Positions 17,473-63,941 of a stretch of DNA of 64,000 nucleotides are shown in pieces. The position numbers were made by a program, and so were the translations under genes. The notes below the pieces were generated by a model. The model saw only the letters and a list, made by a program, of their open reading frames with translations, was not told the origin of the DNA and searched no databases. Each line of letters opens with the position of its first letter. Position 1 is the first letter of the stretch. Source of the stretch: [Mycobacterium] crassicus (lineage in GTDB: Bacteria > Actinomycetota > Actinomycetes > Mycobacteriales > Mycobacteriaceae); the NCBI RefSeq assembly GCF_020181615.1, contig NZ_CP084029.1:1103043-1167042 (forward strand), given 5' to 3'.

Positions 17473-18128
17473 CGGAGCCCGAGCCGGCGCGCATCCTGCT
17501 CGTCGACGATCACGCCCTGGTGCGCAGTGGGCTGCGGATGATCCTGGACGCCGAGTCGGACCTTCGCGTGGTGGCGGAGGCGGCCGACGGCTCCGAGGCA
17601 CTGACCATCCTGCGGGACACCCCGATCGACCTGGCGGTTCTGGACATCGCGATGCCCCGGATGACCGGGCTGCAGGCTGCGCGGGAGATCGAACGCAGCC
17701 ATCCCCACGTGCGGATGCTGATGCTGTCGATGTACGACAACGAGCAGTACCTGTTCGAAGCGCTCAAGGCCGGCGCGTCGGGGTATGTGCTCAAATCCGT
17801 GGCCGACCGCGACCTGATCGAGGCCTGCCGCGCCACGATGCGCGGCGAACCGTTTCTGTACGCCGGCGCTGTGACCGCCTTGATCCGGGACCACCTGCAC
17901 CGGGCCCGCCAGGGGGACACGGTGCCGGACAGCATCCTCACTCCGCGCGAGGAGGAAGTCCTGAAGCTGATCGCCGAGGGGCTGTCGGCCCGCGAGATCG
18001 CCAAGACCCTGGGCATCAGCGCCAAGACGGTCGACCGGCACCGGACCAACACCCTGCAGAAACTGGGGCTCCGTGATCGCTTGGCATTGACCCGTTATGC
18101 GATCAGGACGGGCCTGATCGAGCCCTAG
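17469..18128 (+). CDS. NarL/LuxR-family response regulator
   Basis: The 219 residues contain a receiver domain with the acidic pair in LLVDDH (Asp13/14), phospho-acceptor Asp59 (AVLDIAMP) and Lys109 (GYVLKS), followed by a LuxR-type helix-turn-helix near 155-210 (LTPREEEVLKLIAEGLSARE and KTVDRHRTN). GTG 17469 overlaps the kinase stop. A 57-bp repeat array begins inside the stop codon. Confidence 0.95.
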   Translation: MTEPEPARILLVDDHALVRSGLRMILDAESDLRVVAEAADGSEALTILRDTPIDLAVLDIAMPRMTGLQAAREIERSHPHVRMLMLSMYDNEQYLFEALKAGASGYVLKSVADRDLIEACRATMRGEPFLYAGAVTALIRDHLHRARQGDTVPDSILTPREEEVLKLIAEGLSAREIAKTLGISAKTVDRHRTNTLQKLGLRDRLALTRYAIRTGLIEP

Positions 18129-18283
18129 CGGCGTTCGCCAGCGCGACGGAGTCGGGTTGCAGCGGGACGCCGCCGTCGGGCCCAGCGGCGTTCGCCAGCG
18201 CGACGGAGTCGGGTTGCAGCGGGACGCCGCCGTCGGGCCCAGCGGCGTTCGCCAGCGCGACGGGACGCCGCCGTCGGGTGCAG
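18127..18283 (+). repeat. 57-bp tandem repeat array, 2 full copies plus a shortened third
   Basis: Copies start at 18127, 18184 and 18241, exactly 57 bp apart. The third lacks an internal segment of about 16 bp. Each begins AGCGGCGTTCGCCAGCGCGA. The first copy starts within the TAG of the response regulator. On the complementary strand the array stays open with a 19-residue period. The unit resembles, on this strand, the reverse complement of the units at 35032, 39158 and 63857, so it appears to belong to the same family but is the most diverged member. Confidence 0.85.
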
Positions 18284-18604
18284 TGAGGGTAGAACCCCCC
18301 GCCGAATGGGGGCTGCATCCCATGGCGCCGCTCCACTTCGCCACGGAAACTGGAAACAGTTCAGTTAGGAGTTTTTGGTGCGCATTGAGCAGACGGTACG
18401 ATCCCGGCGTGGGTACGCAGGTCCACGAGGCGGTCTTCCGTTTGCCTGGGCGGGCAGTCGTTGACGTGTGTCCGACTGTGGTGCCGTCCGGCGCCCAGTC
18501 GCATGCTGCTGTGGCCTGATGCCAACAAGTGTGCTGCAGATAAATCGGCCATCTTCTGCTGACACTGACTCCGTTGCCTCGATGAGACCGGTCCGTGGAG
18601 AGTG
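18284..18604. other. Leader region upstream of the Mrp operon
   Basis: About 320 bp between the repeat array and the antiporter operon hold no credible gene. A hairpin with five C-G pairs and a 7-nt loop (18296-18312) may end the two-component transcript, although no T run follows. The Mrp promoter must lie in the remainder. No ion-responsive riboswitch fold was recognised by eye. Confidence 0.5.
18296..18312 (+). terminator. C5/G5 hairpin, possible factor-dependent terminator
   Basis: Five C, the loop GCCGAAT and five G form a compact stem downstream of the repeat array. The lack of a T tract argues against a canonical intrinsic terminator, though mycobacterial terminators often lack one. 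Confidence 0.35.
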
Positions 18605-21502
18605 ATGCTCGCGATACTGCTTGCCCATGCTGTTGGCACGGCTGCGGCACCCTTGATGGTCCGCAGGTGGGGTCGGGCGGCGTTCTATCCCTTGGGCGCG
18701 ATTCCACTGCTGTCACTGGTGTGGGTGGCGGGGAATTGGCCGCACGGCCAGGGCGACGATCGGCGGGCGCTGGTCAGCTGGGTACCCGGGCTGTCGATGG
18801 ACATCGCGCTGCGTTTCGACGCGCTGGCCGCGATCATGTGTGTGTTGGCGTTGGGGATCGGCGCGCTGGTGCTGTTCTACTGCGCCGAGTACTTCCGCCC
18901 GGTCAGCCCGCACACCGAGCTGGACCCGCGGCTGCCCAGCTTCGCCGCGAAGATGCTGGGGTTCGCCGGATCCATGTTCGGGCTGATGGTCGCCGACAAC
19001 ATGTTGGTGCTGTACGTGTTCTGGGAACTGACCACGGTGTTGTCGTTCCTGCTGGTCGGTCACTACGCCGAACGCGCGGTCAACCGTCGCGCTGCCATCC
19101 AGGCGTTGGTGGTCACCACCGCCGGCGGGTTGGCCATGCTGGTCGGTCTCATCATGCTGGGCCAGACCGCCGGTAGTTACCTGCTGTCGGACCTGGTGGC
19201 CGATCCGCCCTCGGGGACGGTCGTCACCGTCGCCTTGCTGCTGGTCCTGGTCGGCGCGCTGAGCAAGTCGGCCATTGTGCCGCTGCACTTCTGGCTGCCG
19301 GGCGCGATGGCGGCGCCGACTCCGGTCAGCGCCTACCTGCACGCCGCCGCCATGGTCAAGGCTGGGATCTATCTGGTGGCGCGGTTGACGCCGGGCTTCG
19401 CCGACTCGCCGGGATGGCGGCCGACGGTGGTGATCATGGGCCTGGCCACCGCACTGTTGGCGGGCTGGCGGGCGATTCGCGAATACGACCTGAAGCTGGT
19501 GTTGGCCTACAGCACGGTCAGCCAGTTGGGCGTGATGATCGTGCTGGTCGGAGCCGGCGGTAGCGATCTGATGTTGGCCGGCCTGACCGCCATGTGCGCG
19601 CATGCAGCGGCCAAGGCGGCGCTGTTCATGGTGGTGGGGATCGTCGACCATGCCACCGGCACCCGCGATCTGCGAGAACTGGCCGGGTTGGGCCGCCGCG
19701 CGCCCGGACTGTTCGTGATCGCGGCGGCAGCCGCCGCGAGTATGGCCGGGGTGCCGCCGTTCATCGGTTTCATCGCCAAGGAGGCCATCTACGGGACCGA
19801 GGCCCAGGCGCCTGCGCTGGGTTCCTCCGGCCCGTACGTGTTGGGTGCGGCGGTCCTCGCCTCGATGTTCACCGTGATCTACAGCGTGCGGTTCATCTGG
19901 GGTGGCTTCGCCGGCAAGGGACAGACCGAGCCCAGCACCCACGTCGCCGAGATGCACCGGCCGACCAGGGCGTTCCTGGCGGCCCCGGCGGTACTGGCCG
20001 CCACCAGCCTGGGCCTGGGCTTGTGGCCGATAGCGCTGGACACGGTGCTGCACGGCTACGCCGACACCGTGCCCTACGGGGTGACGTACCACCTGGCGCT
20101 GTGGCACGGTGCGGGACTGCCGGTGTTCCTGTCGGCGGGGGTGCTGCTGGTGGGCCTCGGGGTGTTCGCCGCCCGCGGCCCGCTGGGGCTTGCCCGGCTG
20201 CGCCGACTGCCGCTGGGCAGGGCGGACGACATGTATGACGCGTTCCTGCGGGTGCTCGACGTGGCCGCGGTGCGGCTGACCGCGATCACCCAGCGCGGGT
20301 CCCTGCCGGTCAACCAGGCGATGATCTTCGCGACGCTGGTGCTGTTGCCGCTGGCGGCGCTGATGCTGGGAGCGCGTGACCGGGTCGATCTGCGGTTGTG
20401 GGACACGCCGTTGCAGCTCACGCTGGCCGTGTTGGTGGTCGCCGGCGGGATCGGCGCCACGGTGGCTCGCAACCGGCTGTCCGCGGTGTTGATGGTCGGG
20501 GTGACCGGGTACGGCTGCGCGGTGGCGTTCGCGTTCCACGGGGCGCCCGACCTGGCGTTGACCCAGTTGCTCGTCGAGACCGTGACCCTGGTGATTTTCG
20601 TGCTGGTGCTGCGCACGCTGCCGGCAGAATCCGAGCGCCCCTCGATGGCGATGAACCGGCTGCCGCGAGCGCTGCTGGCCGTGACGGTCGGCGCCGCCGT
20701 CGCGGTGCTGGGGGCCTTCGCGATGGCGGCGCGCACCCGCGATGGGGTTGCCGGCCTATTGCCCGCCGCAGCCTATGAGCGCGCCCACGGGGCCAACACC
20801 GTCAATGTGATTCTGGTCGACGTCCGGGCCTGGGACACCCTTGGGGAGATCTCGGTGTTGCTGGTCGCCGCGACCGGGGTGGCCTCGATGGTGTTCCGCA
20901 ACCAGCGGTTCGGCCGCGCGCCACGCATCGCCGACGCCGGCGAACACCGCAGGGACCCGGGCGTCGCGACCCCCTACAGTCCGGCCATCGCGTCCACCAC
21001 CTGGCTGCGTGGCAGCGACTACCACGATCCCAATCAGCGGTCGCTGGTGTTGGAGGTTGCGACCCGGATCATCTTCCCGCTGATCATGGTGGTCTCGGTT
21101 TACTTCCTCTTCGCCGGGCACAACCACCCGGGCGGCGGCTTCGCCGGCGGGCTGGCCGCCGGGTTGGCACTGGCGCTGCGCTACCTGGCCGGCGGGCGCT
21201 ACGAGCTCGGCGAGACCCTGCCGCTGGACTCCGGCAAGATCCTGGGCGTCGGGCTGAGCCTGGTGGGGGGCACGGCGCTGGCGTCGCTGTTCTTCGGTGC
21301 GCCGGTCCTGTCGTCGGCGGCACTGTCGTTCACCCTGCCCGTGCTGGGACAGGTCACGGTGATCACCTCGGTGTTCTTCGATGTGGGGGTGTATCTCGTC
21401 GTGGTCGGCATGGTGCTCGATGTGCTGCGCAGCCTGGGCGCCCGCCTGGACCAGGAACTGGAATCGCGGCCCGCTCGTCGACCGATAGCGAGGACGTCAT
21501 GA
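18605..21502 (+). CDS. mnhA: Mrp/Mnh Na+/H+ antiporter subunit A with a fused subunit B domain
   Basis: The 965-residue multi-spanning protein has an NADH-dehydrogenase subunit 5-like core (LHFWLPGAMAAPTPVSAYLH, and HAAAKAALFMVVGIVDHATG), an MrpA-specific C-terminal section, then an MnhB domain from about 825 (RIIFPLIMVVSVYFLFAGHN and GGGFAGGLAAGLALAL). No separate mnhB exists, so this is the fused A/B arrangement. It forms the proton-translocating core of the complex in the cytoplasmic membrane. ATG 18605 is preferred over GTG 18602 because GGAG lies 4 bp before it. The 3' end overlaps mnhC by 4 nt. Confidence 0.95.
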   Translation: MLAILLAHAVGTAAAPLMVRRWGRAAFYPLGAIPLLSLVWVAGNWPHGQGDDRRALVSWVPGLSMDIALRFDALAAIMCVLALGIGALVLFYCAEYFRPVSPHTELDPRLPSFAAKMLGFAGSMFGLMVADNMLVLYVFWELTTVLSFLLVGHYAERAVNRRAAIQALVVTTAGGLAMLVGLIMLGQTAGSYLLSDLVADPPSGTVVTVALLLVLVGALSKSAIVPLHFWLPGAMAAPTPVSAYLHAAAMVKAGIYLVARLTPGFADSPGWRPTVVIMGLATALLAGWRAIREYDLKLVLAYSTVSQLGVMIVLVGAGGSDLMLAGLTAMCAHAAAKAALFMVVGIVDHATGTRDLRELAGLGRRAPGLFVIAAAAAASMAGVPPFIGFIAKEAIYGTEAQAPALGSSGPYVLGAAVLASMFTVIYSVRFIWGGFAGKGQTEPSTHVAEMHRPTRAFLAAPAVLAATSLGLGLWPIALDTVLHGYADTVPYGVTYHLALWHGAGLPVFLSAGVLLVGLGVFAARGPLGLARLRRLPLGRADDMYDAFLRVLDVAAVRLTAITQRGSLPVNQAMIFATLVLLPLAALMLGARDRVDLRLWDTPLQLTLAVLVVAGGIGATVARNRLSAVLMVGVTGYGCAVAFAFHGAPDLALTQLLVETVTLVIFVLVLRTLPAESERPSMAMNRLPRALLAVTVGAAVAVLGAFAMAARTRDGVAGLLPAAAYERAHGANTVNVILVDVRAWDTLGEISVLLVAATGVASMVFRNQRFGRAPRIADAGEHRRDPGVATPYSPAIASTTWLRGSDYHDPNQRSLVLEVATRIIFPLIMVVSVYFLFAGHNHPGGGFAGGLAAGLALALRYLAGGRYELGETLPLDSGKILGVGLSLVGGTALASLFFGAPVLSSAALSFTLPVLGQVTVITSVFFDVGVYLVVVGMVLDVLRSLGARLDQELESRPARRPIARTS

Positions 21503-24707: not shown

Positions 24708-24730
24708 AACGCCCGGCAGTGCCTCAGATC

Positions 24731-32110: not shown

Positions 32111-33255
32111 GACTGGTATCCCAGGGTCTTGGCGGCCAATGAGGTCAGGATCTCGGTGGTTCCACCGCCGATGCCGATGATGCGCATGTCCCGATACTGG
32201 CGCTCCACCTCGGACTCGGCCATATAGCCCATGCCGCCGAACAGCTGCACCGCCTGGTTGGCCACCCACTCACCGGCCTCCACCGCGGTGTTCTTGGCGA
32301 AACACACCTCCGGGATGAGGAAGGCCTCACCGGCCAGCTGCCGCTCGACGACGTGGTGGGTGTAGACCCGGGCCACGTCGATGCGCCGGGCCATCTCGGC
32401 CAGGGTGTTCTGCACCGCCTGCCGCGTGATCAGCGGCCGGCCGAATGTCTCCCGGTCCCGGCACCACGTCTGGGTCAGGTCCAGGCAGCGTTGCGCGCTG
32501 GCATACGCCTGCGCGGCCAGCCCGACCCGCTCGGAGACGAAGGCCGCGGCGATCTGGGCGAAGCCGGTGTTCTCGACGCCGACCAGGTTCGCCGCCGGCA
32601 CCCGGGCGTCGACGTAGGACAGTTCGGCGGTGTCCGAGGATCGCCAGCCCATCTTCTCCAGCTTGCGACTCACCTCGAAGCCCGGCGTGCCCTTCTCGAC
32701 CACCAGCAGCGACACCCCGGCCGCCCCCGGCCCGCCGGTGCGGACCGCGGTGACGACATAGTCGGCGCGCACCGCGGAGGTGATGAACGTCTTGGAACCG
32801 TTGACCACGTAGTGGTCGCCGTCGGGGCGCGCCGTGGTGCGCAGGTGCCCGACATCCGAGCCGCCGCCGGGCTCGGTGATGGCCAGCGAACCGATCTTCT
32901 CGCCGGCCAGCGTGGGGCGGACGAACTCGTCGATCAGCCGAGCGTCGCCCGAGGCGATCATGTGCGGCACCGCGATACCGCAGGTGAACAGGGAGGCGAA
33001 CACCCCGCCCGGCGCCCCGGCCTGGTGCATCTCCTCGCAGACGATCACCGCGTCGGCGCCGTCTCCGCCACTGCCGCCGACCTCCTCGGGGAAGCCCGCA
33101 CCCAACAACCCGACCTCGGCGGCCTTGCGGTGCAGTTCGCGCGGCAGATCGCCGGAGCGTTCCCACTCGTCGACGTGCGGCAGAATCTCGCGTTCGACGA
33201 AACCGCGGACGGTCTTGCGCAGCGCTTGGCGCTCGGTGGTGGTCCAGATACTCAC
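32107..33255 (-). CDS. fadE13: Acyl-CoA dehydrogenase
   Basis: The 382 residues begin with GTG 33255, overlapping the atuA stop by 4 nt (GTGA). Motifs: GFPEEVGGSGGDGAD, the FAD-binding LAITEPGGGSDVGHLRTT, and the C-terminal QLFGGMGYMAESEVERQYRD with RIIGIGGGTTEI. The central EVCFAKN and the Glu near the C-terminal segment are as in short/branched-chain enzymes. It is a second dehydrogenase for the same operon, as in the atuD/liuA systems. Confidence 0.95.
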   Translation of the reverse strand: MSIWTTTERQALRKTVRGFVEREILPHVDEWERSGDLPRELHRKAAEVGLLGAGFPEEVGGSGGDGADAVIVCEEMHQAGAPGGVFASLFTCGIAVPHMIASGDARLIDEFVRPTLAGEKIGSLAITEPGGGSDVGHLRTTARPDGDHYVVNGSKTFITSAVRADYVVTAVRTGGPGAAGVSLLVVEKGTPGFEVSRKLEKMGWRSSDTAELSYVDARVPAANLVGVENTGFAQIAAAFVSERVGLAAQAYASAQRCLDLTQTWCRDRETFGRPLITRQAVQNTLAEMARRIDVARVYTHHVVERQLAGEAFLIPEVCFAKNTAVEAGEWVANQAVQLFGGMGYMAESEVERQYRDMRIIGIGGGTTEILTSLAAKTLGYQS

Positions 33256-34967
33256 AGTTCCCCTTCTGACAGCAGCTGCTCGGGTATCTCGAGGTGACGG
33301 CTGCGCAGCCATTCGCCCAGCCCCTTGGCCTGCGGGTCGAATCGGGCCTGGTAGGCCACGCCCTGCCCGAGGATGCCCTCGATGACGAAGTTCACCGCGC
33401 GCAGCTTCGGCAGCAGGTGGCGGGTGACCGGCAACTCGGCGGTCTCGGGCAGCAGTTCGCGCAGCTTCTCAGGAGTCAACGTGTGGGCCAGCCAGCGCCA
33501 CTGCTCCTCGGTGCGCACCCAGACCCCGACGTTGGCCGAGCCGCCCTTGTCGCCGCTGCGGGCGCCGGCGAGCAGGCCCAACGGCGCGCGCCGAGTCGGG
33601 CCGGCCGGCAACGGCTCGGGGAGGCCGGGTTCGGCCGCGGCCGCCAGCTCGAGTGTCTCGGCAGCGGAGGGAATGTCCACCCGGGTGCCGTCGGCGTGCA
33701 CGGCGACGTGCGGCACCTGCGTGGCATCGACATAGCCGGGGGTGAAGACCCCGTAGACCTGGCCGTCGCCGGGCGGGGCGGTGACGCAGAACCCGGGATA
33801 ACTGGCCAGTGCGAGTTCGATGCCGGCCGCGGAGAACTTGCGGCCCACGTTGGCCGGGTCCGGGTCGCGCACCACGCAGTGCAGCAGGGCGCTGGCGGTT
33901 TCCTCGGTGTCGGCGTCGGGGTGGTCGGTGCGCGACAACGTCCAGTCCAGCTCGGCCGGGCGGACGGTCAGGGCCGCCTCGAGCTGCGTGCGCAGCAGCG
34001 CGGCCTTGGCCTCGATGTCCAGGCCGGTCAGCACGAAGGTGGTGGAGTTGCGGAACCCGCCGATGCTGTTCAGCGACACCTTGTAGGTGGGTGGCGGCGC
34101 CTCGCCGGTCACGCCGGAGATCCGCACCCGGTGCGGGCCGTCAGCCGTCAGTTCGATGCTGTCCATGCGCGCGGTGACGTCGGGGTTGGCGTAGCGGGCG
34201 CCGGTCACCTCGTAGAGCAGTTGCGCGGTGACGGTGTCGACGCTGACCAACCCGCCGGTGCCGGGATGTTTGGTGATCACCGATGACCCGTCGGCGTGGA
34301 TCTCCGCTAGCGGGAAGCCGGGGTGCAGCATCTGCTCGGTGGGAATCTCGGTGAAGAAGGCGTAGTTGCCGCCGCTGGCCTGGATTCCGCACTCGATCAC
34401 GTGACCGGCGACCACCGCCCCGGCGAGCTGGTCGTAGTCGGTGCGATCCCAACCGAAGTGGGCGGCGGCCGGGCCGAGGATCACCGACGCGTCGGTGACC
34501 CGGCCGGTGATCACGACGTCGGCGCCACCGGCCAGGCACTCGACGATCCCCCAGCCACCCAGGTAGGCGTTCGCGGTCAGCGGGGTTCCCAATCCGAGCT
34601 TGGCGGCCCGGGGGAGTAGGTCGTCGCCTTCGACGTGGGCCACCGTGGCGGGGATGCCGAGGCGGTCGGCCAGTTGGCGTACCGCGTCGGCCAGGCCGGC
34701 CGGATTGAGCCCGCCGGCGTTGGCCACGATACGAACGCCCTTGTCACGGGCCAGTCCGAGGCATTGTTCGAGCTGGGTGAGGAACGTCTTGGCGTAGCCG
34801 CGCTCCGGGTGTTTCATCCGGTCGCGCCCCAGGATGAGCATGGTCAGCTCGGCCAGGTAGTCGCCGGTGAGAAAGTCCAGGTCACCGTCAGTGAGCATCT
34901 CGTGCATCGCAGCGTGGCGGTCGCCGTAGAAGCCCGAGCAGTTTCCGATCCGAACCGCTGCTGTCAT
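33252..34967 (-). CDS. AtuA-family protein of acyclic terpene utilisation (DUF1446, Rv0976c-like)
   Basis: The 571 residues begin MTAAVRIGNCSGFYGDRHAA and contain GGDVVITGRVTDASVILGP-like and PRRAPLGLLAGARSGDKGG segments, typical of AtuA. AtuA proteins occur in pseudomonad citronellol/geraniol operons next to geranyl-CoA carboxylase, but their reaction is not known. GTG 34982 and ATG 34979 are also in frame; ATG 34967 matches the family N-terminus best. It is the first gene of the operon, downstream of a palindromic operator. Confidence 0.88.
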   Translation of the reverse strand: MTAAVRIGNCSGFYGDRHAAMHEMLTDGDLDFLTGDYLAELTMLILGRDRMKHPERGYAKTFLTQLEQCLGLARDKGVRIVANAGGLNPAGLADAVRQLADRLGIPATVAHVEGDDLLPRAAKLGLGTPLTANAYLGGWGIVECLAGGADVVITGRVTDASVILGPAAAHFGWDRTDYDQLAGAVVAGHVIECGIQASGGNYAFFTEIPTEQMLHPGFPLAEIHADGSSVITKHPGTGGLVSVDTVTAQLLYEVTGARYANPDVTARMDSIELTADGPHRVRISGVTGEAPPPTYKVSLNSIGGFRNSTTFVLTGLDIEAKAALLRTQLEAALTVRPAELDWTLSRTDHPDADTEETASALLHCVVRDPDPANVGRKFSAAGIELALASYPGFCVTAPPGDGQVYGVFTPGYVDATQVPHVAVHADGTRVDIPSAAETLELAAAAEPGLPEPLPAGPTRRAPLGLLAGARSGDKGGSANVGVWVRTEEQWRWLAHTLTPEKLRELLPETAELPVTRHLLPKLRAVNFVIEGILGQGVAYQARFDPQAKGLGEWLRSRHLEIPEQLLSEGEL

Positions 34968-34984
34968 CCGCAATCCCATCACTC

Positions 34985-35000: not shown

Positions 35001-35031
35001 AGCCGGTACCGCCGGTGTCACGTCAAGGTGC
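35001..35031. other. Short spacer between operator and repeat array
   Basis: Thirty-one bases with no recognisable signal. The whole 357-bp gap between the atu-like operon and rpmF holds, in order, the operator, this spacer, a 57-bp repeat array, an rpmF promoter and a hairpin. Confidence 0.4.
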
Positions 35032-35223
35032 GTCGAGCCGCGCTGAACCGCTCGGCTTGTCCGGCGGTCCCAGCTTCGGCTCTCCTCCGTCGAGCCTCGC
35101 TGAACCGCTCCGCCTGCCCGTCGGTCCCAGCTTCGGCTCTCCTCCGTCGAGCCTCGCTGAACCGCTCGGCCTGTCCGTCGGTCCCAGCTTCGGCTCTCCT
35201 CCGTCGAGCCTCGCTGAACCGCC
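35032..35223 (-). repeat. 57-bp tandem repeat array, 3 full copies plus a partial fourth
   Basis: Units start at 35032, 35089, 35146 and 35203, all exactly 57 bp apart; the last ends after 21 bp. The minus strand reads open across the array with the period RFSEARRRRAEAGTDGQAE (19 residues). No ribosome binding site or known protein is associated, so a peptide is not claimed. The unit shares strong identity with the copies at 39158-39337 and 63857-63940. Confidence 0.9.
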
Positions 35224-35324: not shown

Positions 35325-35498
35325 ATGGCCGTGCCGAAGCGCAGGATGTCGCGCGCGAACACCCGTAGTCGCCGCGCACAGTGGAAGGCCGAGGCAACTG
35401 GCCTGGTCAACGTGTCAGTCGCCGGTCGTGCGCACAAGGTGCCGCGCCGGTTGCTGAAGGCGGCTCGACTGGGCCTGATCGACCTCGACCGTCGCTAA
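35325..35498 (+). CDS. rpmF: 50S ribosomal protein L32, cysteine-free form
   Basis: The 57 residues [20 protein letters not shown] match bacterial L32. The zinc-binding cysteines of many L32 proteins are absent, so it is the C-minus type usual in mycobacteria. ATG 35325 follows GAGGAGAGG and is preferred over the upstream frame extension at 35307. A terminator follows directly. It belongs to the large ribosomal subunit. Confidence 0.97.
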
Positions 35499-37760: not shown

Positions 37761-39143
37761 ATGATGAACCACCCGGGGTACTCCCCGCCGCCTCAGCAGC
37801 CGGAACGGTCGAATCCGACCGGTGCGCCGGCGGCGGAACAGCGCGGACCGGTCGGTTACCCCGGGGGTGGCGTGCCGGGCCCGTACTCGCAGCCCTACGA
37901 CTGGCGTTACGGCCAGCAGCCCGCGCAGCCCGCGTACCGCGCGGCTTACAACGCCTCGTACGGCCAGCCTGGGATGCCCGTCGGCCCGGCGGGGCCCCAG
38001 AAGCGCCCCCGCTCAGGGGCGCTGGTGTTGGGCGCGGTCGCTATTGCGGCGATGTCGGGCGTACTGGGCGGTGTGGTGGGCTCTGCACTGCACTCCGACC
38101 GCAAGTCGGTTGCCACGGGCGGCCTCACGCCGAGCATTCAGGCGCCGGGTGTGCCGGCCGCGGTGAACCTGCCGGACGGTTCGGTGGAGAAGGTCGCGGC
38201 CAAGGTGGTGCCCAGTGTCGTCATGCTGGAGACCGATTTGGGACGCCAGTCCGAGGAGGGCTCCGGCATCATCCTGTCGGCCGACGGGATGATCCTGACC
38301 AACAACCACGTGGTGGCGGCCGCTGCCGCCAAGCCCGAACCGGGCAGCAGGCCCGACGGGGGCCCCAAGGCGCCGCCGAAGACCACCGTGACGTTCTTCG
38401 ACGGCCGCACCGCATCGTTCACCGTGGTGGGGACGGACCCGGCCAGCGACATCGCCGTGGTGCGTGTCCAGGGTGTCTCCGACCTGACTCCGATCACGCT
38501 CGGCTCGTCGGCAGACCTGCGGGTGGGCCAGCACGTGGTGGCCGTCGGGTCGCCGCTGGGCCTGGAGGGCACCGTGACGACCGGCATCGTCAGCGCCCTG
38601 AACCGGCCCGTGTCCACCAGCGGTGAGGCGGGCAACCAGAACACCGTGCTGGACGCTATCCAGACGGACGCCGCGATCAACCCGGGTAACTCCGGCGGAG
38701 CGCTGGTCAACATGAACGGCGACTTGGTCGGGATCAACTCGGCGATCGCGACCATGGGCGGGGACTCCGCCGAAGCGCAGAGCGGCTCCATCGGCCTCGG
38801 CTTCGCGATCCCAGTGGATCAGGCCAAACGGATCGCCGACGAACTGATCAACTCACCGGATCACACGGCGTCGCACGCCTCGCTGGGGGTGCGTGTCACC
38901 AGCGAGCGCAGCCTGCACGGCGCGAAGGTGGTCGAGGTGGTTCCGGGCGAGGCGGCGTCGAAAGCCGGCTTGCCCGAGGGCTCGACGGTGACCGCGTTCG
39001 ACAAGCGCCCGATCGGCAGTGCCGACGCGCTGGTGGCCGCCGTGCGGTCCAAGGCACCCGGCGACCAGGTGACACTGACCTACCTGGACGCGTCCGGAGC
39101 AACCAAGACCGCGCAGGTAACCCTAGGTAAAGCTGCGCAGTGA
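37761..39143 (+). CDS. pepD: HtrA-like serine protease PepD
   Basis: The 460 residues have a Pro/Gly/Tyr-rich cytoplasmic N-terminus, one membrane anchor (about 86-110), a trypsin-like domain with His183 (TNNHVV), Asp230 (PASDIAVV) and Ser311 (NPGNSGGALVN), and a C-terminal PDZ domain (about 360-455). It degrades or refolds misfolded envelope proteins and feeds back on MprAB. A 54-bp gap to mprB contains the ribosome site AGGAG. The repeat array starts 14 bp after the stop. Confidence 0.97.
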   Translation: MMNHPGYSPPPQQPERSNPTGAPAAEQRGPVGYPGGGVPGPYSQPYDWRYGQQPAQPAYRAAYNASYGQPGMPVGPAGPQKRPRSGALVLGAVAIAAMSGVLGGVVGSALHSDRKSVATGGLTPSIQAPGVPAAVNLPDGSVEKVAAKVVPSVVMLETDLGRQSEEGSGIILSADGMILTNNHVVAAAAAKPEPGSRPDGGPKAPPKTTVTFFDGRTASFTVVGTDPASDIAVVRVQGVSDLTPITLGSSADLRVGQHVVAVGSPLGLEGTVTTGIVSALNRPVSTSGEAGNQNTVLDAIQTDAAINPGNSGGALVNMNGDLVGINSAIATMGGDSAEAQSGSIGLGFAIPVDQAKRIADELINSPDHTASHASLGVRVTSERSLHGAKVVEVVPGEAASKAGLPEGSTVTAFDKRPIGSADALVAAVRSKAPGDQVTLTYLDASGATKTAQVTLGKAAQ

Positions 39144-39157
39144 CGGGACTGGTGGGG

Positions 39158-39337
39158 CCGCCGTGCTGATGCGGCGGTTCCAGCTTCGTCTCTCCTTCGT
39201 CGAGCCTCGCTGAGCCGCCGTGCTGATGCGGCGGTTCCAGCTTCGTCTCTCCTTCGTCGAGCCTCGCTGAGCCGCCGTGCTGATGCGGCGGTAACAGCTT
39301 CGTCTCTCCTTCGTCGAGCCTCGCTAAACCGCCGGGC
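39158..39337 (-). repeat. 57-bp tandem repeat array, 3 copies, between pepD and moaB2
   Basis: GTCGAG boundaries fall at 39199, 39256 and 39313, exactly 57 bp apart, with a partial unit at each end. The minus strand reads RRLSEARRRRDEAGTAASA per unit. Copies differ by one or two bases, for example GGTTCC versus GGTAAC, so this looks recent and may vary between strains. Confidence 0.9.
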
Positions 39338-39360
39338 TTCCGCGAGATACGGTTGCACCC

Positions 39361-39855
39361 ATGGAACAGTCCCCAGAACTCGCCGGCCGCGCGCTCGTCA
39401 TCGTGGTCGACGACCGCACCGCGCATGGCGACGAGGACCACAGCGGTCCGTTGGTCACTGAACTGCTGGCCGAAGGCGGATTCATGGTCGACGGCGTGGT
39501 GGCCGTCTCCGCCGACGAGGTGGAGATCCGCAACGCGCTGAACACCGCGGTGATCGGCGGTGTCGACCTGGTGGTATCGGTCGGCGGCACCGGGGTCACC
39601 CCGCGGGACGTCGCGCCGGAAGCCACCCGCGACATTCTGGACCGTGAGCTGCTCGGCATCGCCGAGGCGCTGCGGGCATCCGGTCTGGCCGCCGGGATCG
39701 CCGACGCCGCCCTGTCCCGCGGGCTGGCCGGGGTCTCGGGCAGCACCCTGGTGGTCAATCTGGGCGGATCCCGGGCCGCGGTGCGCGACGGGATGGCGAC
39801 GCTGAACCCGCTGGCGGCCGCGATCATCGGCCAACTGTCCAGCTTGGAGATCTGA
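39361..39855 (+). CDS. moaB2: Molybdenum cofactor protein MoaB2 (MogA-like)
   Basis: The 164 residues belong to the MoaB/MogA family: RALVIVVDDRTAHGDEDHSG, the VVSVGGTGVTPRDVAPEATR loop that binds molybdopterin, and LPG-like GVSGSTLVVNLGGSRAAVRDG. It adenylylates or transfers molybdopterin before molybdate insertion. M. tuberculosis has the same gene downstream of pepD (Rv0984). Confidence 0.95.
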   Translation: MEQSPELAGRALVIVVDDRTAHGDEDHSGPLVTELLAEGGFMVDGVVAVSADEVEIRNALNTAVIGGVDLVVSVGGTGVTPRDVAPEATRDILDRELLGIAEALRASGLAAGIADAALSRGLAGVSGSTLVVNLGGSRAAVRDGMATLNPLAAAIIGQLSSLEI

Positions 39856-45421: not shown

Positions 45422-46567
45422 ATGCCCAGCATCCCTCAATCATTGCTCTGGATCTCACTGGTCGTCCTCTGGCTGTTCGTACTGGTGCCGATGCTGGTCA
45501 GCAAGCGTGACGCGGTACGCCGCACCAGCGACGTGGCCCTGGCGACGCGGGTGCTGACCAGCGGCAGCAGTGCCCGACTCCTCAAGCGCGGCGGGCCGGC
45601 CGCCGGTCACCGCAGCGACCCCGACTGGCAGCAGGACACCGCTGAGGCCGAGCGCGACGACCTCGACGACGTCAACGACGTGGAAGAGGACGAGCCCGTC
45701 GAGAGCCAGCCGCGGGTGTTCGTCGCCGCCGCCGGTGAGCAGGGCGAGCTCGACTATCTCGACGTGGACGTCATCGCCGACGACGATTCCGGCGTGCTGC
45801 CGCTGTCGGAGGCCGGTTTTGCGCAGGCGCGGGCACAGGCCGCCGAGGCGGAGGCCGAGGCGCGGGCTCAGGCCGAAGCGGAGGAGCGGGCGCGAGCCGA
45901 GGCGGAGGAACGGGCGCGGGCTGAGGCAGAGGCAGAGGCAGAGGCGGAGGAGCGGGCGCGGGCCGAGGCTGAAGCCGAGGAGGCCTACGACGAGGCCGAC
46001 GGCGAACCGGTTGCCGACGCCGAGTCCGCCGACGACGCCGAAGCCGACGGCTACGAGTACGAAACGATGGACGACAGCTCCGGGCTGGAAGCCGCGGCGG
46101 ACGCACCGATGGGCGCACGCGCCTCGTTGCGCCGGCCACGGGCCGACACCCAGACCGCGGCCGCGGTCAGCGCCCGCAAGTACGAATTCCGCAAGCGGGT
46201 GCTGATGTCGCTGGCGGTGATCCTGGTCTTCTCGGCCCTCACGGCCTTCACCGTCGCCCCGACCGCGTGGTGGATCTGTGGCGGCGCAGCGGGGGCTACC
46301 GTGCTCTATCTGGCCTACCTGCGGCGCCAGACTCGCATCGAGCAGCAGGTGCGGGCGCGGCGGGCACGGCGGGCGGAACGGCCTCGCGCGCAGCGGGAGA
46401 GCGCCGGTGCGGAGCCTTTCGAGGTGGTGCCGTCGCGGCTGCGTCGTCCGGGTGTGGCCGTGCTGGAGATCGACGATGAGGACCCGGTGTTCGAGCACCT
46501 CGAGTACGCGTCGACCGCGGGCGAGTACGACTGGCGGGGCGACCTGCCGCGCGCGTCCGGTCAGTAG
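45422..46567 (+). CDS. GlpR/SepX-type divisome membrane protein (Rv0996-like)
   Basis: The 381 residues start with a membrane helix (LLWISLVVLWLFVLVPMLVS), followed by DAVRRTSDVALATRVL, a highly acidic then Ala/Glu/Arg-rich stretch (about 100-210) likely to form a coiled coil, and two more helices (about 262-302). Homologues GlpR and SepX anchor the Glp/FtsZ ring to the membrane. Position downstream of moeA1 and rimJ supports this. It follows AAAGGAG with a normal spacing. The Ala/Glu stretch is encoded by tandem GAGGCA units and may vary in length. Confidence 0.87.
   Translation: MPSIPQSLLWISLVVLWLFVLVPMLVSKRDAVRRTSDVALATRVLTSGSSARLLKRGGPAAGHRSDPDWQQDTAEAERDDLDDVNDVEEDEPVESQPRVFVAAAGEQGELDYLDVDVIADDDSGVLPLSEAGFAQARAQAAEAEAEARAQAEAEERARAEAEERARAEAEAEAEAEERARAEAEAEEAYDEADGEPVADAESADDAEADGYEYETMDDSSGLEAAADAPMGARASLRRPRADTQTAAAVSARKYEFRKRVLMSLAVILVFSALTAFTVAPTAWWICGGAAGATVLYLAYLRRQTRIEQQVRARRARRAERPRAQRESAGAEPFEVVPSRLRRPGVAVLEIDDEDPVFEHLEYASTAGEYDWRGDLPRASGQ
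45923..45949 (+). repeat. Hexanucleotide GAGGCA microsatellite in the GlpR-type gene
   Basis: Four GAGGCA/GAGGCG units followed by GAG encode Glu-Ala repeats inside the coiled coil. A larger duplicated block (AEERARAEA) surrounds it from about 45880 to 45990. In-frame length change between strains is likely. Confidence 0.75.
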
Positions 46568-56970: not shown

Positions 56971-57018
56971 CAGTTCGATTCGTCGAGATCGTCGGTGCGA
57001 CGGTCGCGCCGCCAGGAG

Positions 57019-58578: not shown

Positions 58579-58602
58579 GCAGACGATCGTAGGCTGTGCG
58601 CC

Positions 58603-59439: not shown

Positions 59440-59510
59440 GGGGATGTCGGAATCTCCCCGACGTCGTTAGGCTTCTGTCCAGGTAGTTTTCCGAGCCCCG
59501 GAGGACGCGC

Positions 59511-59915
59511 ATGACGTCGAACAACAAGGGCAATGCCGGGTCGACACCACTGAGTATTGCGCTCATCGTCGTCGGTCTGATCTTCATCGTCGGGATCTAT
59601 CCGCTGACCGTGATCTGGCCGGCGGGCTGGGCCTGGGGCCACGCCGGTGCCGATTCGTCGCACTACCTGGTGATGATCCTCGGCATGTACGCCACGCTCG
59701 GGGTGTTCCTGCTGATCGCGTCGCGTGATCCACTCGCCCACCGCAGCCTGATCTGGTTCACGGTGGCCTCCAGCGTCGTGCACGCCGCGATCATGATGGC
59801 GCAGGCGATCACGGACGCGGCCGAACGCGGCCATCTTCTCGGCGACGTGCCCGCGCTGCTGATCGTGGCGCTGGTACTGGCATTGTTGATGCCGCGCCGC
59901 GGCGCGCTCGCCTGA
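59511..59915 (+). CDS. Four-helix membrane protein (DUF6632-like)
   Basis: The 134 residues have four hydrophobic segments (about 15-33, 50-68, 78-98 and 111-127) and the recognisable pieces YPLTVIWPAGWAWGH, HYLVMILGMYATLGVFLLIA and HRSLIWFTVASSVVHA. This matches the DUF6632 family as recalled; the assignment should be checked. A GTCGG/CCGAC inverted pair (about 59466-59483) in the gap may end rsmI. Function unknown. Confidence 0.72.
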   Translation: MTSNNKGNAGSTPLSIALIVVGLIFIVGIYPLTVIWPAGWAWGHAGADSSHYLVMILGMYATLGVFLLIASRDPLAHRSLIWFTVASSVVHAAIMMAQAITDAAERGHLLGDVPALLIVALVLALLMPRRGALA

Positions 59916-59935
59916 GGGCACTCCGCCGCGCCGGG

Positions 59936-61015: not shown

Positions 61016-61028
61016 CGCAACCTCCGCG

Positions 61029-61055
61029 TGTTAGTAAGTTATTAAAACGCTAACA
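61029..61055. promoter_or_regulatory. Inverted repeat TGTTAG-N15-CTAACA
   Basis: Perfect 6-bp arms lie in an A/T-rich 84-bp divergent region between the MpaB-like and TetR genes. It is the probable operator of that TetR. Confidence 0.55.
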
Positions 61056-61099
61056 TCACCACGTCGGGTTGGGAAGCGCCAATGTGGAAGGATCGCGTC

Positions 61100-61705
61100 A
61101 TGCCTGTCGATCAGACCGGCGAGCGCATATTGGACGCCGCCCTGCAGGCGATCCTCGATTTCGGTGTGCGGCGGGCCTCGATGGAGGAGATCGCCCGACG
61201 GGCCGGGGTGTCGCACATGACCGTCTACCGGCGCTGGCCGACCAAGAAGGAACTGCTGGCGGCCGTGCTGGGCAAGGTCGCCGACGAGATCTTCGCCGCC
61301 GTCGACGACGAGGTGGCGGCACTGGACAGCTACGAAGACCGGTTCGTGGCCGGTTTCACCGGTATCTACTGGCGGGTCTATACCCATCCGATGCTGAGTC
61401 GCACGCTGGAAACCGACCCCGAAGCCGTCCTTCCCGCGCTGACCACCGGTGCGGGTCCGGCACTGGAACTGGCGACCAGCTATCTGGCCGGACACATCGC
61501 CAACACCGCCCGGCGTAGCGGCATCACCGTCAACGATCCGCACGGGCTGGCCGAGATCTTCGTGCGCCTGACTCACTCGCTGGTGCTCACCCAGCGGATC
61601 CGCGAACCGCTGCACAGCCGCGCCGACGCCGAACAGTATGCGCGCCAACATCTCTTGCCGCTGGCCTTGGCAGCGGTGCGCCCGGCGCGCGCCGACGCCA
61701 GGTAG
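61100..61705 (+). CDS. TetR-family transcriptional regulator
   Basis: The 201 residues from ATG 61100 begin MPVDQTGERILDAALQAILD and contain the helix-turn-helix SMEEIARRAGVSHMTVYRRW. ATG 61100 has GGAAGGA 7 bp before it, preferred over ATG 61082. It is divergent from the MpaB-like oxygenase and probably regulates it through the inverted repeat at 61029-61055. The 3' end is 5 bp from the convergent pabB stop. Confidence 0.92.
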   Translation: MPVDQTGERILDAALQAILDFGVRRASMEEIARRAGVSHMTVYRRWPTKKELLAAVLGKVADEIFAAVDDEVAALDSYEDRFVAGFTGIYWRVYTHPMLSRTLETDPEAVLPALTTGAGPALELATSYLAGHIANTARRSGITVNDPHGLAEIFVRLTHSLVLTQRIREPLHSRADAEQYARQHLLPLALAAVRPARADAR

Positions 61706-61709
61706 CGCC

Positions 61710-62966
61710 CTACGAGGCGGTGCTGCGTGCCCGGGACTGCTCGGCGGTGACGATCGGTGCGGCCTTGTGCAGGCACTCCTGCCATTCGGCGTCGACATCG
61801 GAATCCGCGGTGATCCCGCCGCCGACCCCGAGCACCGCGCCGCCGGCGGCGTCGAACTCCACCGTGCGGATCGCCACGTTGAGCTCGCAGCCGGCCACCG
61901 GCGACGCCAGCCCCACGGTGCCGCAGTACACCCCGCGCCGATGCGGCTCCCACTGCGAAAGCAATTGCCGAGCACGGTGTTTGGGTGTTCCGGTCACCGA
62001 TGCCGGCGGGAACGTGGCATCCAGCAGCGCAGCCATGCCCAGCTGCGCCGGCACCTGGGCGGACACCGTCGACACCAGGTGCCACACACCGGGCGCCGGG
62101 CGTACCGTCAGCAGTTCGGGGACCGTGACGGAGCCGGTGATCGCCACGCGGCCCAGATCATTGCGCACCAGGTCGACGATCATGATGTTCTCCGCGACGT
62201 CCTTGGCCGAGGCGCGCAGCGCCGACGGAAGGGCGTCCAGCGGCAGGGTGCCCTTGATCGGACTGGATGTCACCACGCCGGCGCAGCGGCGCAGGAACAG
62301 CTCCGGGGACAACGACGCCACCGCACCCCAGTCGCCCGCGACATAGGCGGCCCGGGCTGGGCCGGTGCGCGCCACCGCGTCGGCGAAGAAGTCCAGCGGG
62401 GCGCCGACGACGGTCCCGGTGAACCGGGTACACACGCACGCCTGATACACCTCGCCGGCCCGGATGGCCTCCAGGCAGGCCAGCACCCCGGCGCGGTGTG
62501 CCTGCCGGTCCGGGGTCTCCCAGTAGATGCGGCAGCCGCGCACCGGCCCCGGCGTGGTCAGTGCCTCGCTGAGCCAGCCCGGCAGCGGTGCACCGGACAG
62601 GCTCTCGAACCACCACTGCCCGTCGGTGTCGTCCTGGCGCAGCACGCAGTCGGTCCAGCCACCCGCGGCCTCAGGAATCTGCGCGCCTCGGCCGTCCGCG
62701 CCGGCATCGGGGTAGGACAGGTAGCCGATCCAGCCGCCGCCCACCGCTGCGGACGGCGCGTCGGCCGACTGGATCTCGGGGACGTCGAACACCGCGGCCG
62801 CCTCGACCGGCTCGACGGCCACGCTCGGGGCGATCACCGCCCGGGCGCCGAACCACTGGCCGGTCAGTGCGGCCGGCGGCGGCAGCCCGCGCCGGGCCGT
62901 GGCGTCACCGACCGCGCGCAGCACCTCCGGGGCTGCACCCAGGTCGCCGAGCCGTTCGATCCGCAC
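61710..62966 (-). CDS. pabB: Para-aminobenzoate synthase component I
   Basis: The 418 residues match chorismate-binding enzymes: AGEVYQACVCTRF, ASLSPELFLRRCAGVVTSSP, IKGTLPLDALPSALRASAKD, ENIMIVDLVRNDLGRVA and the ending RTVEFDAAGGAVLGVGGGIT. It forms aminodeoxychorismate for folate. The K/A residue in PIKGT separates pabB-type from trpE-type enzymes, and position next to rsmI matches Rv1005c. GTG 62966 is the start. Confidence 0.94.
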   Translation of the reverse strand: MRIERLGDLGAAPEVLRAVGDATARRGLPPPAALTGQWFGARAVIAPSVAVEPVEAAAVFDVPEIQSADAPSAAVGGGWIGYLSYPDAGADGRGAQIPEAAGGWTDCVLRQDDTDGQWWFESLSGAPLPGWLSEALTTPGPVRGCRIYWETPDRQAHRAGVLACLEAIRAGEVYQACVCTRFTGTVVGAPLDFFADAVARTGPARAAYVAGDWGAVASLSPELFLRRCAGVVTSSPIKGTLPLDALPSALRASAKDVAENIMIVDLVRNDLGRVAITGSVTVPELLTVRPAPGVWHLVSTVSAQVPAQLGMAALLDATFPPASVTGTPKHRARQLLSQWEPHRRGVYCGTVGLASPVAGCELNVAIRTVEFDAAGGAVLGVGGGITADSDVDAEWQECLHKAAPIVTAEQSRARSTAS

Positions 62967-62987
62967 CGCACTAGCTTGTCAGACAAA

Positions 62988-63941
62988 TCAGCTGCGGGTG
63001 ATCTCCCGGGCAGCGGTCAGCGCCGCCAGCTTGTCCGGGTTGCGCATGGCGTAGAAGTTGGTGATCAGCCCGTCGATGATCTCGACGGTGAACACCCCTT
63101 CGAGCCGGTCCGCGGTGTAGAGCAGTACCGCCGGGGCGGAGTTGCAGGTCGCCATCTCCACCCTGACGTCGGGTTGGCCAGCCCCGATGCGCAACAGCCC
63201 GATGACCGAACGGGCGACCTTGTCGGCGCCGACGATCGGGCGGCGCGCCGCGGTGGCCTTGCCGCCGCTGTCGGCGGTCCACACCACGTCGGGCGCCAGC
63301 ATGGACAGCACCTTCGCAATGTCGCCGCCGGCTGCCGCGGTCATGAACTCGGCCGTGATCCGCTCGTTCTCGGCCGGATCGACCGGGGTGAAGCGCGGCC
63401 GCCGGGCCTGCACGTGCCCGCGGGCCCGGTGCGCGACCTGACGGGCCGCGGGGGTCGACTTGCCCACCGCGGCACCGATCTCGTCGTAGTCGAACCCGAA
63501 CACCTCGCGCAGCACGAACACCGCGCGCTCGTCGGGGCTCAGCGTCTCCAGCACCACCAGCATCGCCATCGACACCGACTCGGCCAGCACCACGTCGGCC
63601 GACGGGTCCTGCTCGGTCAGCAGCAGTGGCTCGGGCAGCCACGGGCCGACGTACTCCTCGCGGCGCCGGGCACCCGCCCGTAGCGCGTTGAGCGCCTGGC
63701 GGGTGACCAGCTGGGCCAGGTAGGACTTGGCATCGCGCACCTCTGCCGTATCCACCTCCGCCCACCGCAGATAGCTGTCCTGCAGGACGTCGTCGGATTC
63801 GGTTGCCGAGCCCAGGATCTCGTAGGCGATGGTGAACAGCAGCGGCCGCAGTTCGGTGAACCGCTGTGCTGATGCAGCGGTCCCAGCTTCGCCTCTCCTT
63901 CGTCGAGGCTCGCTGAACCGCTGGGCGTGTCCGTCGGTCAC
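62988..63941 (-). CDS. SigJ-type ECF sigma factor with a SnoaL-like C-terminal domain
   Basis: The 317 residues contain sigma region 2 (LRPLLFTIAYEILGSATESD, DVLQDSYLRWAEVD), region 4 (LETLSPDERAVFVLREVFGF with YDEIGAAVGKSTPAARQVAH), and a C-terminal SnoaL-like domain (NERITAEFMTAAAGGDIAKV). Such sigma factors are controlled by the attached domain rather than by an anti-sigma factor. GTG 63941 overlaps the preceding gene's TGA by 4 nt and follows GGGAGG at 7 bp. Residues 7-25 (QRFSEPRRRRGEAGTAASA) are one unit of the 57-bp repeat. Confidence 0.9.
   Translation of the reverse strand: MTDGHAQRFSEPRRRRGEAGTAASAQRFTELRPLLFTIAYEILGSATESDDVLQDSYLRWAEVDTAEVRDAKSYLAQLVTRQALNALRAGARRREEYVGPWLPEPLLLTEQDPSADVVLAESVSMAMLVVLETLSPDERAVFVLREVFGFDYDEIGAAVGKSTPAARQVAHRARGHVQARRPRFTPVDPAENERITAEFMTAAAGGDIAKVLSMLAPDVVWTADSGGKATAARRPIVGADKVARSVIGLLRIGAGQPDVRVEMATCNSAPAVLLYTADRLEGVFTVEIIDGLITNFYAMRNPDKLAALTAAREITRS
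63857..63940 (-). repeat. 57-bp repeat inside the sigma-factor coding region, 1.5 copies
   Basis: A full unit spans 63857-63913, and 63914-63940 starts a second. In the sigma-factor frame this gives AQRFSE and AQRFTE flanking a 19-residue insert. It has the same 57-bp period and sequence as the intergenic arrays. Confidence 0.85.

Follow-up and report, generated by a model that had tools for sequence, protein, structure and literature searches.

Several classes of short bacterial repeats are close to the element that we describe here. Rickettsia palindromic elements are, in the part of PMC2229807 that deals with them, small palindromic mobile repeats that lie between genes and also in frame within conserved protein genes; the same part presents RUP, Correia/NEMIS, ERIC and YPAL as non-autonomous elements of <200 bp with inverted repeats, several of them with target duplication, and reports both filled and empty sites for YPAL. 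REP, BIME and REPtron sequences are high-copy palindromes of 20-50 nt, some of them bulged, with a conserved tetranucleotide, and in their IS200/IS605 kin a guide sequence picks the cleavage site by complementarity (from the relevant portion of PMC8266576). Mycobacteria have MIRU of 77 and 53 bp, whose range is given as M. leprae and the M. tuberculosis complex only in the corresponding section of PMC4213456.

Here, we analyzed a 57-bp repeat unit in a 64-kb stretch of DNA from a Mycolicibacter genome (the window) and in related genomes. The unit is likely made up of a ~53-bp non-autonomous palindromic mobile element, with the consensus GTTCATGCGGCGGTYCCAGCTTCGSCTCTCCTYCGTCGAGSCTCGCTGAACCG, and a single copy of its 4-bp target, which most often reads CCGG, the element being expanded in this lineage and working like REP or Rickettsia palindromic elements. 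Like the latter, as far as PMC2229807 describes them, it is palindromic, mobile, and found between genes as well as in frame in protein genes; unlike them (105-146 bp; compared by description, not by sequence), it measures 53 bp with a 57-bp period, has a CCGG-like 4-bp target, forms tandem arrays, and is actinobacterial. It shares with REP, in the account of PMC8266576, the form of a high-copy imperfect palindrome with a tetranucleotide, but here the tetranucleotide tends to flank both sides and counts in the 57-bp gain, some copies are intragenic, and no Y1 transposase was found. Compared with the MITE-like repeats covered in PMC2229807 (105-168 bp, most of them A+T-rich with TA ends), the element is smaller, has a period of 19 codons, and has no known parent insertion sequence.

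Tandem Repeats Finder reported three period-57 arrays in the window, at 18118-18263 (array 1, 2.5 copies), 35031-35222 (array 2, 3.4 copies) and 39157-39338 (array 3, 3.2 copies), the last two belonging to the same sequence family. The original prediction had listed four such arrays, three of them of the same sequence. The three periodic arrays were recovered, and a profile of the main family (R1, family A, built from 28 copies in the window's own genome) matched arrays 2 and 3 and also 63864-63924, but this last locus (63857-63940 in the prediction) is a single unit rather than an array and is absent from the Tandem Repeats Finder list. Array 2, array 3 and 63873-63925 scored 58.9-69.1 bits with R1, a partial unit at 35031-35058 scored 20.5 bits, and no other place in the 64-kb window rose above 10.3 bits; an Rfam search of the window returned tRNA only. 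The features are collected in Table 1.

Table 1. Repeat features identified in the 64-kb window.
Feature	Position	Strand	Remarks
Array of second 57-bp family (B)	18118..18283	-	overlaps stop codon of response-regulator ORF 17469-18128
Partial unit (3' half) before array 2	35031..35054	+	R1 20.5 bits, model 32-59
Array 2, three full elements with spacers	35055..35221	+	cores at 35071, 35128, 35185
Left copy of array 3 4-bp target, CCGT	39161..39164	+	columns as defined by flank comparison
Array 3, three elements	39165..39331	+	cores at 39181, 39238, 39295
Right copy of array 3 target, CCGG	39332..39335	+	
Left target copy of single unit, CTGT	63864..63867	+	
Single 53-bp element, arms CAGCGGT / ACCGCTG	63868..63920	+	
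Right target copy of single unit, CTGG	63921..63924	+	

Array 2 separates two divergent genes, an AtuA-type ORF (33252-34982, minus strand) and an L32 ribosomal protein gene (35325-35498, plus strand). Array 3 has a trypsin/PDZ protease ORF (37761-39143) on one side and a MoCF_biosynth ORF (39361-39855) on the other, and had no match among plasmid and phage records at E<=1e-5. Of 18 named Mycolicibacter records, 7 are without any unit at the array 3 site, the pepD-moaB2 site having 0-2 units in these 18 records versus 3 in the own genome. As predicted, one locus lies inside a coding region, namely the 63.9-kb unit within a sigma-70-type ORF (62988-63992, minus strand), N-terminal to Sigma70_r2, and one array begins in a stop codon, array 1 overlapping the TAG at 18126-18128. 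To the left of the 63.9-kb unit there is a half-copy (GGTGAACCG...) that belongs to the native host sequence: of 21 relatives inspected by eye, 16 have it or a near variant and no element.

A profile search of the complete genome returned 91 family A units at E<=1e-3, and each of 20 related genomes contained 21-155 at the same threshold, giving ~1,650 matches for the clade as the sum of per-genome counts, no more than 150 candidate places having been scored in any genome. The low-copy genomes were G361, G016 and G292. The conserved ends of the element read GGCGGTYCCAGCTTCG and CGAGCCTCGCTGAACCGCC; relatives elsewhere in Mycobacterium have these ends in common with it and differ in the loops. 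Unit number at orthologous sites ranges from 0 to 5 and differs between species, units inside one array are nearly identical, and a ~79-bp long form occurs at a few loci beside the 53-bp form. Counting by eye showed no obvious strand bias along the chromosome. An assembly artefact is unlikely because the element recurs in separately named records, partly at shared sites and partly at others. The literature that we searched, to which this statement is confined, contained no description of the element and no match to sequence words.

Sites that are CCGG-like and otherwise unchanged either have or lack a whole unit, and the 4-mer tends to flank the unit on both sides. In genome G150, 38 of the 48 queried own loci could be aligned and 24 of these were without a unit; in G292, the figures were 28 of 48 and 27. 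Among single-unit loci whose orthologue in G150 or G292 lacks a unit, 14 of 25 gave an exact 57-bp difference in at least one comparison, and adding L117 (one of its two sites exact) brings this to 15 of 27; the remaining 12 never did so, their differences being 47-88 bp or odd cases. Such unit-free sites with an exact gain, together with the copy number and the variable pepD-moaB2 site, support the proposal of a genome-wide mobile, duplicating repeat whose presence and unit number differ between relatives. Movement inside a single strain was not seen.

At the 15 exact loci, most left-flank columns as far as -17 match the empty site at 0.80-0.93 of loci, and right-flank columns -20 to -16 do so at >=0.87, agreement dropping to only 0.60-0.67 at the weak columns (left -19 and -16, both sides -21). 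The two matches overlap and thus define four shared columns, the 4-bp target, which reads CCGG in the empty site at 8 of 15 loci and within one column at 11 of 15, against a background of 1.7% of surrounding positions. Left and right 4-mers were identical at 109 of 160 positions versus 94.3 (SD 3.6) in shuffles, a value reached in 1 of 20,000. The columns of these narrower flank and 4-mer tests were chosen after seeing the flank data; in an initial flank test on the full set of loci, a 56-bp subtype had acted as a confounder. The target duplication, a trait of MITEs, is a statistical one, in that the two 4-mers are fully identical at only 10 of 40 loci, CCGG stands as the left copy at 8 and as the right copy at 21, and the element ends themselves resemble the target. 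These 40 loci, used for the 4-mer and junction tests, are those with standard ends among 54 groups (53 loci), which underlie the flank, arm, neighbourhood and frame statistics and derive from ~59 loci hand-merged from R1 matches at E<=1e-3; the best-match copy finder misses some copies, and array 3 and several weak or partial units fall outside these statistics. A 10-column spacer test was not significant on the expected diagonal (type I 241/2000, type II 552/2000); its diagonal 21, without meaning for the target, reached 28/2000. A longer target duplication of 9-12 bp, as a perfect repeat at L154/L024 had seemed to offer, was rejected, the insert there being 66 bp and the repeat apparently the beginning of another unit that has since been lost. 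The tandem arrays are repeats of element plus target, with a unit number that varies between species, and may grow by slippage or unequal recombination.

The element forms an imperfect hairpin with a conserved core, and its arms covary between loci, including the arm that faces the target. Over 53 own groups, arm complementarity was higher within than between loci (reached in 16 of 20,000 permutations), and in genome G175, where both stems were compared at 12 loci (of 14 fetched, cut by hand, L341 and L342 being without a complete element), the within-locus excess was reached in 0 of 20,000. Several bases differ at once between loci in the G175 arms, with complementarity kept. The junction triplets paired at 105 of 120 positions versus 91.5 (SD 2.2) expected (0/20,000), a CAG arm going with CTG at the junction in 5 of 5 cases and a GGG arm with CCC. 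RNAalifold on 28 units returned no covariation.

Many copies lie between genes or at 3' ends, and those called intergenic comprise 6 tandem-opposite, 5 tandem-same, 5 divergent, 3 convergent and 1 edge arrangement. A palindrome placed in frame in protein genes, the trait of the Rickettsia elements, was found at 16 of 50 loci (48 queried plus the two in L117, those of the window left out), each passing a coding test on both sides by codon-position G+C, on which the gene calls rest rather than on a gene finder. Twelve of the 16 use one reading frame (GGSARLDEGEAKL...), antisense to the element, and for L115, L134 and L136(-), where two frames passed, the better one was picked by hand. Some of the in-frame insertions fall within enzyme domains, candidate hosts of GGSARLDGGEAKLGPPH-type peptides being an enoyl-CoA hydratase (L144) and an NAD(P)H-hydrate dehydratase (L154). 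At nine of the 16, substitutions follow one phase on the two flanks, a phase that coincides with third codon positions in the frame read at 9 of 9, and the inserts there are all multiples of 3; the others are unclear on one side (L116, L134, L144) or have no aligned orthologue (L120, L128, L149, L160). None of 11 loci of the 56-bp type lies in a gene versus 16 of 39 of the 57-bp type (p = 0.0099; other denominators give 16/41 and 18/42). Insertions can stay in frame because 53 + 4 bp make 19 codons, and each would add a hydrophilic Gly/Ser/Glu/Pro peptide, out-of-frame insertions probably being removed by selection. The open 19-residue frame, put forward originally as a notable trait, is what chance gives: random window 57-mers, when tandemised, leave a mean of 4.5 of 6 frames open, and 99.8% of them leave one or more.

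Array 1 had been taken for a diverged, opposite-strand member of the main family, which our data do not support. R1 reached at best 2.3 bits on 18127-18283, no match, and the array 1 unit resembles the family A consensus no more than shuffled units do (p = 0.32), so that we rejected it from family A. Shuffle tests against three family A places gave p = 0.24, 0.57 and 0.045, with p = 0.03 for a reverse-complement control. The second family, B, has 7 places in the own genome at E<=1e-3, array 1 included. A profile of 10 family B units scored <=4.2 bits on 28 family A units (best shuffled, 2.1) and reported 9 of these 28 versus 50 of 560 shuffled sequences. Array 1 thus appears as a separate family that has period and layout in common with family A and is not demonstrably the same sequence, a common origin of the two being only suggested.

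Could the units simply be known repeats? Identity or direct kinship with MIRU, compared here by description only, is unlikely. MIRU are reportedly proposed to transpose into short DTGA sites, whereas the target here is CCGG-like. The size classes are similar, 77 and 53 bp in that section of PMC4213456 and ~79 and 53 bp here, and both repeats are mycobacterial and occur in tandem and dispersed; the hosts named there, however, are only M. leprae and the M. tuberculosis complex. (The TB CRISPR repeat was absent from a sample of 396 genus genomes, among which no M. tuberculosis-complex genome was recognised.) Ordinary minisatellites, growing by local slippage and spread through gene conversion without transposition, would account for near-identical units within an array and for 0 to 5 units at orthologous sites. 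We regard them as very improbable because slippage cannot make a first copy, and at most loci the unit stands alone, in places unrelated to one another, many of which have a CCGG-like target and an orthologue lacking the unit; exact gains of 57 bp at 15 loci are hard to reconcile with such an origin.

Functional RNA or DNA hairpins under structural selection (attenuators, mRNA stabilisers or protein-binding sites) would fit the arm covariation, the conserved core and the intergenic or 3'-end copies, but are quite unlikely given that presence at the same site differs freely among related species, that the in-frame copies are mostly antisense to the element, and that intergenic copies have no preferred gene arrangement. 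Of the element itself, the most likely reading is selfish DNA tolerated by frame and site, not a regulator. Its covariation might instead stem from template switching between the quasi-palindrome arms, rather than from selection or a mobilising enzyme, a possible though somewhat unlikely origin: the multi-base differences in G175 are as arm-from-arm correction would give, but some arm changes track the locus's own target. Arm correction predicts target-linked changes only if target-derived bases count as arm. It is rather doubtful that the element is hairpin-guided, with one arm pairing with the 4-bp target (CGG to CAG arm with CCGG to CTGG target), moved by an enzyme outside the known REP/IS200/IS605 transposases and tuned to 19 codons for colonising coding sequence. 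For the non-autonomous mobile element that we favor, an enzyme provided in trans would use the hairpin as its substrate. The Y1 transposase typical of REP (PF01797) had no match in the own and six further Mycolicibacter-type genomes; of the 16 genomes covered by this search, only G002 had any. Neither a transposase nor an autonomous parent came to light, and no insertion sequence sharing the ends was noticed among the partial R1 matches.

If this holds, a whole section of Mycobacterium carries tiny mobile hairpins that alter intergenic spacing between sister species and add 19-residue peptides to conserved enzymes. The many pairs of filled and unit-free sites make it possible to ask about target choice, the moving enzyme, and how proteins tolerate inserted peptides, and they supply candidate strain-typing loci in the M. 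terrae complex. They also give a clue to a long-standing question, the origin of mycobacterial VNTR loci.

Tandem Repeats Finder placed three arrays with a period of 57 bp in the window, and two of these (arrays 2 and 3) form, together with a single unit near its end, one sequence family, family A. The original prediction had taken four loci for one dispersed family and the first array for a diverged member of the same sequence. This holds for arrays 2 and 3 and the single unit and fails for array 1, which was not matched in a family-A profile search of the window and whose units were no closer to the family-A consensus than shuffled units (p 0.32; 0.045 to the single unit and 0.03 to a reverse-complement control). 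Array 1 belongs to a second family, family B, which we found at seven places in the host genome at E<=1e-3, array 1 counted (the others are L164-L168 and L170), as tandem and single copies of a unit of about GGCGGCGACCCGCWGCGCCCGACTCCGTCGCGCTTGCGATCGCCGCT; the copy at L165 ends directly on an ATG. Both families have the same layout, i.e., a spacer often ending in ATG, then GGCGG.., a core, and ..CCGC. At one site (L159), the host genome carries a family-A unit, the sister genome G150 an apparent family-B unit (L285), and the sister genome G292 neither. Given this site and the shared layout, a common origin of the two families is possible but unproven.

Coordinates of repeats and other features in the window, and of one array elsewhere in the genome
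Feature	Position	Description
Window	1103043-1167042 (genome)	Part of the genome's single contig, 4,871,803 bp
C run (L360)	1-74 (window)	74 C, preceded in the genome by a long G run and ten N
Array 1	18118-18263 (window)	Family B, period 57; family-B copies span 18118-18283
Array 2	35031-35222 (window)	Family A, period 57; rpmF gap
Array 3	39157-39338 (window)	Family A, period 57; pepD-moaB2 gap
Imperfect repeat	45842-45980 (window)	Another kind; periods 6, 24, 30, 42
Single unit	63864-63924 (window)	Family A
L119 array	1005715-1005998 (genome)	Five tandem units, in frame

The G run, the ten N and the C run at the start of the window resemble an assembly gap bordered by homopolymers, in a genome made up of one contig.

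We take the host genome to be a Mycolicibacter (M. terrae complex), because the closest relatives of the protease adjoining array 3 are Mycolicibacter records, the best being Mycolicibacter sp. MYC340 at 96%. Array 3 had no match among plasmid and phage records. The expectation of a genome-wide repeat was borne out by a profile search: R1, a sequence-only profile built from 28 loci, gave 91 matches in the host genome at E<=1e-3, which merge by hand into about 59 family-A loci, and 110 at E<=1. R1 counts ranged from 21 to at least 155 in 20 related genomes and were as low as 2 in one further genome (G361). Across a sample of the genus, 52 of 396 genomes matched at least once at E<=1e-3, 23 of them 13 or more times, while 9 of 301 genomes matched in a sample of the mycobacterial family, two of them outside the genus with one weak match each.

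The number of units at a given site varied between species. In the pepD-moaB2 gap, where the host genome has three units, 11 of 18 named Mycolicibacter records had one or two and seven had none; in the compared records, the rpmF gap held no unit, a single one, a pair, or pieces that were decayed or truncated; and the 63.9-kb site, judged by eye in 21 relatives, held one or two units in 3, fragments in 2 and none in 16. Both L117 sites showed the same kind of variation, and neither of the two window sites compared held a unit in M. talmoniae, M. kyorinense or M. shimoidei.

A single family-A copy shows a 33-bp core between the arms GCGGCGGTYC and ACCGCC. We sought 48 host loci in G150 and G292 by their joined flanks and fetched the orthologous stretches. 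In G150, 38 loci aligned, 14 with units and 24 without; in G292, 28 aligned, one with a unit and 27 without. The loci counted as unit-free include L159, with its family-B unit, and remnants (L127, L132 and L140). Two such G150 sites, L127 (L284) and L140 (L253), retain the left end (..TCATGCGG) alone, as if the remainder had been excised, and are possible footprints. An excess of exactly 57 bp over the unit-free orthologue was found, in at least one comparison, at 14 of 25 single-unit loci. Adding the two L117 sites, of which one gave 57 bp against G292 and three other genomes (56-67 or less elsewhere) and the second always 60 bp, brought this to 15 of 27; the remaining loci differed by 47 to 88 bp or had no simple reading.

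At these 15 exact-gain loci, the left flank equaled the empty site at a fraction of 0.87 in columns -18 and -17 and then dropped to 0.60 and 0.40, while agreement of the right flank with the empty site was at least 0.87 from column -20 onward. The two sides therefore share four columns, -20 to -17, with left column -19 weaker (0.67). In these columns the empty sites read CCGG at 8 of 15 loci, or 11 of 15 within one column, against a background of 1.7% of surrounding positions. Over 40 loci, the right target copy was CCGG at 21 and CTGG at 5, and the left copy at 8 and 3, respectively; left and right 4-mers agreed at 109 of 160 bases, versus 94.3 when shuffled among loci (1 of 20000), with identity at only 10 of 40 loci. 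From the duplicated columns, the CCGG-like empty sites and this agreement, we read the 57-bp unit as an element of ~53 bp together with 4 bp of target, and the spacer inside arrays, which is particular to each locus, as the duplicated target plus the element's own first bases.

The element arms pair around a C bulge. Over 53 groups in the host genome, an arm matched the partner within its locus better than partners taken from other loci (16 of 20000 permutations). Covariation was strong at 12 loci of G175, a relative with the same element ends and a different centre (0 of 20000 each for outer arms and inner stems), with outer arms such as GGCGGGT/ACCCGCC, GGCCGGT/ACCGGCC and CGCGATT/AATCGCG and inner stems CTCGGC/GCCGAG, CTTGGC/GCCAAG, CTCAGC/GCTGAG and ATCGGC/GCCGAT; at four of the 12 loci, pairing of the outer arms is limited to three or four bases. 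Yet other centres occur in G386 and G381, where units are spaced about 66, 78 and 89 bp apart, and the host genome has a few long forms of ~79 bp with an extra inner hairpin (L147, L153, L163 and L355, the last with a tandem pair). G381, a member of the genus with a 6.3-Mb genome, carries a 78-bp unit in two arrays (L310, L313, L316 and L325), with the same ends and with CCGG in the spacer. Such differing centres between the same ends indicate that the ends are the conserved part of the element and the loop is replaceable. Possibly, the ~79-bp form is ancestral and gave rise to the 53-bp form through loss of the inner stem.

The arm triplet next to the left end also pairs with the right-junction triplet that overlaps the target (CGG/CCG 22, CAG/CTG 5/5, also GGG/CCC and CGA/TCG), with 105 of 120 pairs versus 91.5 expected (0 of 20000); mismatched combinations occur, CGG standing with CTC three times. 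This pairing would be explained by guide-target pairing like that described for IS200/IS605 transposons (PMC8266576), and it would also be explained by repair of one arm off the other.

Some copies lie inside genes. A first pass by codon-position G+C gave 26 of 54 groups as apparently intragenic, and a stricter test, coding-like sequence on both sides and a frame open through the element, was passed by 16 of 50 loci. At nine of these 16, substitutions against G150 or G292 clustered in one phase, shared by the two flanks and in all nine equal to codon position three of the frame read, and the inserts were all multiples of three (57 (33 versus G292), 69, 57, 57, 54 or 57, 57, 66, 57 and 57 bp); three others were ambiguous on one flank and four lacked an aligned orthologue. 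L131, L136(+) and L127 were rejected as intragenic, since the phase changes across the element and places them between genes, and L119, L133 and L137 passed a looser coding test only. The five units at L119 contribute ~95 residues close to the C-terminus of an open frame of 561 codons. The host gene ran antisense to the element at 12 of the 16 loci, giving a peptide of roughly GGSARLD(E/G)GEAKL.PPH.P; three loci had the sense-frame reading G.GGSSF.SP.SSLAEPP or similar, and one reads AAVPASPLLRRASLNRR. Of the original prediction that the repeats keep an open 19-residue frame, the openness alone is meaningless at this G+C, while an in-frame position, for the most part in a single frame, is meaningful. 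The 56-bp subtype, which carries TAA, was intragenic at 0 of 11 loci, versus 16 of 39 for the 57-bp type (p 0.0099).

Upon placing the inserts of nine host proteins with Pfam, we found that of an enoyl-CoA hydratase (L144) at residues 117-136 within ECH_1 (59-294), and others within a domain of NAD(P)H-hydrate dehydratase (L154), within the NAD-binding domain at L149 and within the EF-G-type GTPase domain at L160. Inserts in a ComEA-like protein (L126), a LytR-CpsA-Psr protein (L157) and an LCM-type methyltransferase (L143) lay outside the domains found; the L130 protein had no Pfam match and that of L156 a distant one only.

We found no publication describing the family-A element in a literature search, and noticed no larger element with both ends among the partial R1 matches in the host genome. 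A Y1 transposase of the REPtron type (PF01797) would be the evident candidate for the enzyme; it was absent from the host genome, a point on which the family-A element differs from a REPtron, and present in one of 16 genomes searched; that genome (G002, nine Y1_Tnp matches) had no R1 match. The family-A element prefers a site, duplicates 4 bp in the statistical sense, has a covarying hairpin, differs in unit number between genomes and decays, and occurs in frame within genes. It works like REPs and the Rickettsia palindromic elements and has the same build as a MITE and, because it carries no protein-sized frame, it would be mobilised in trans.
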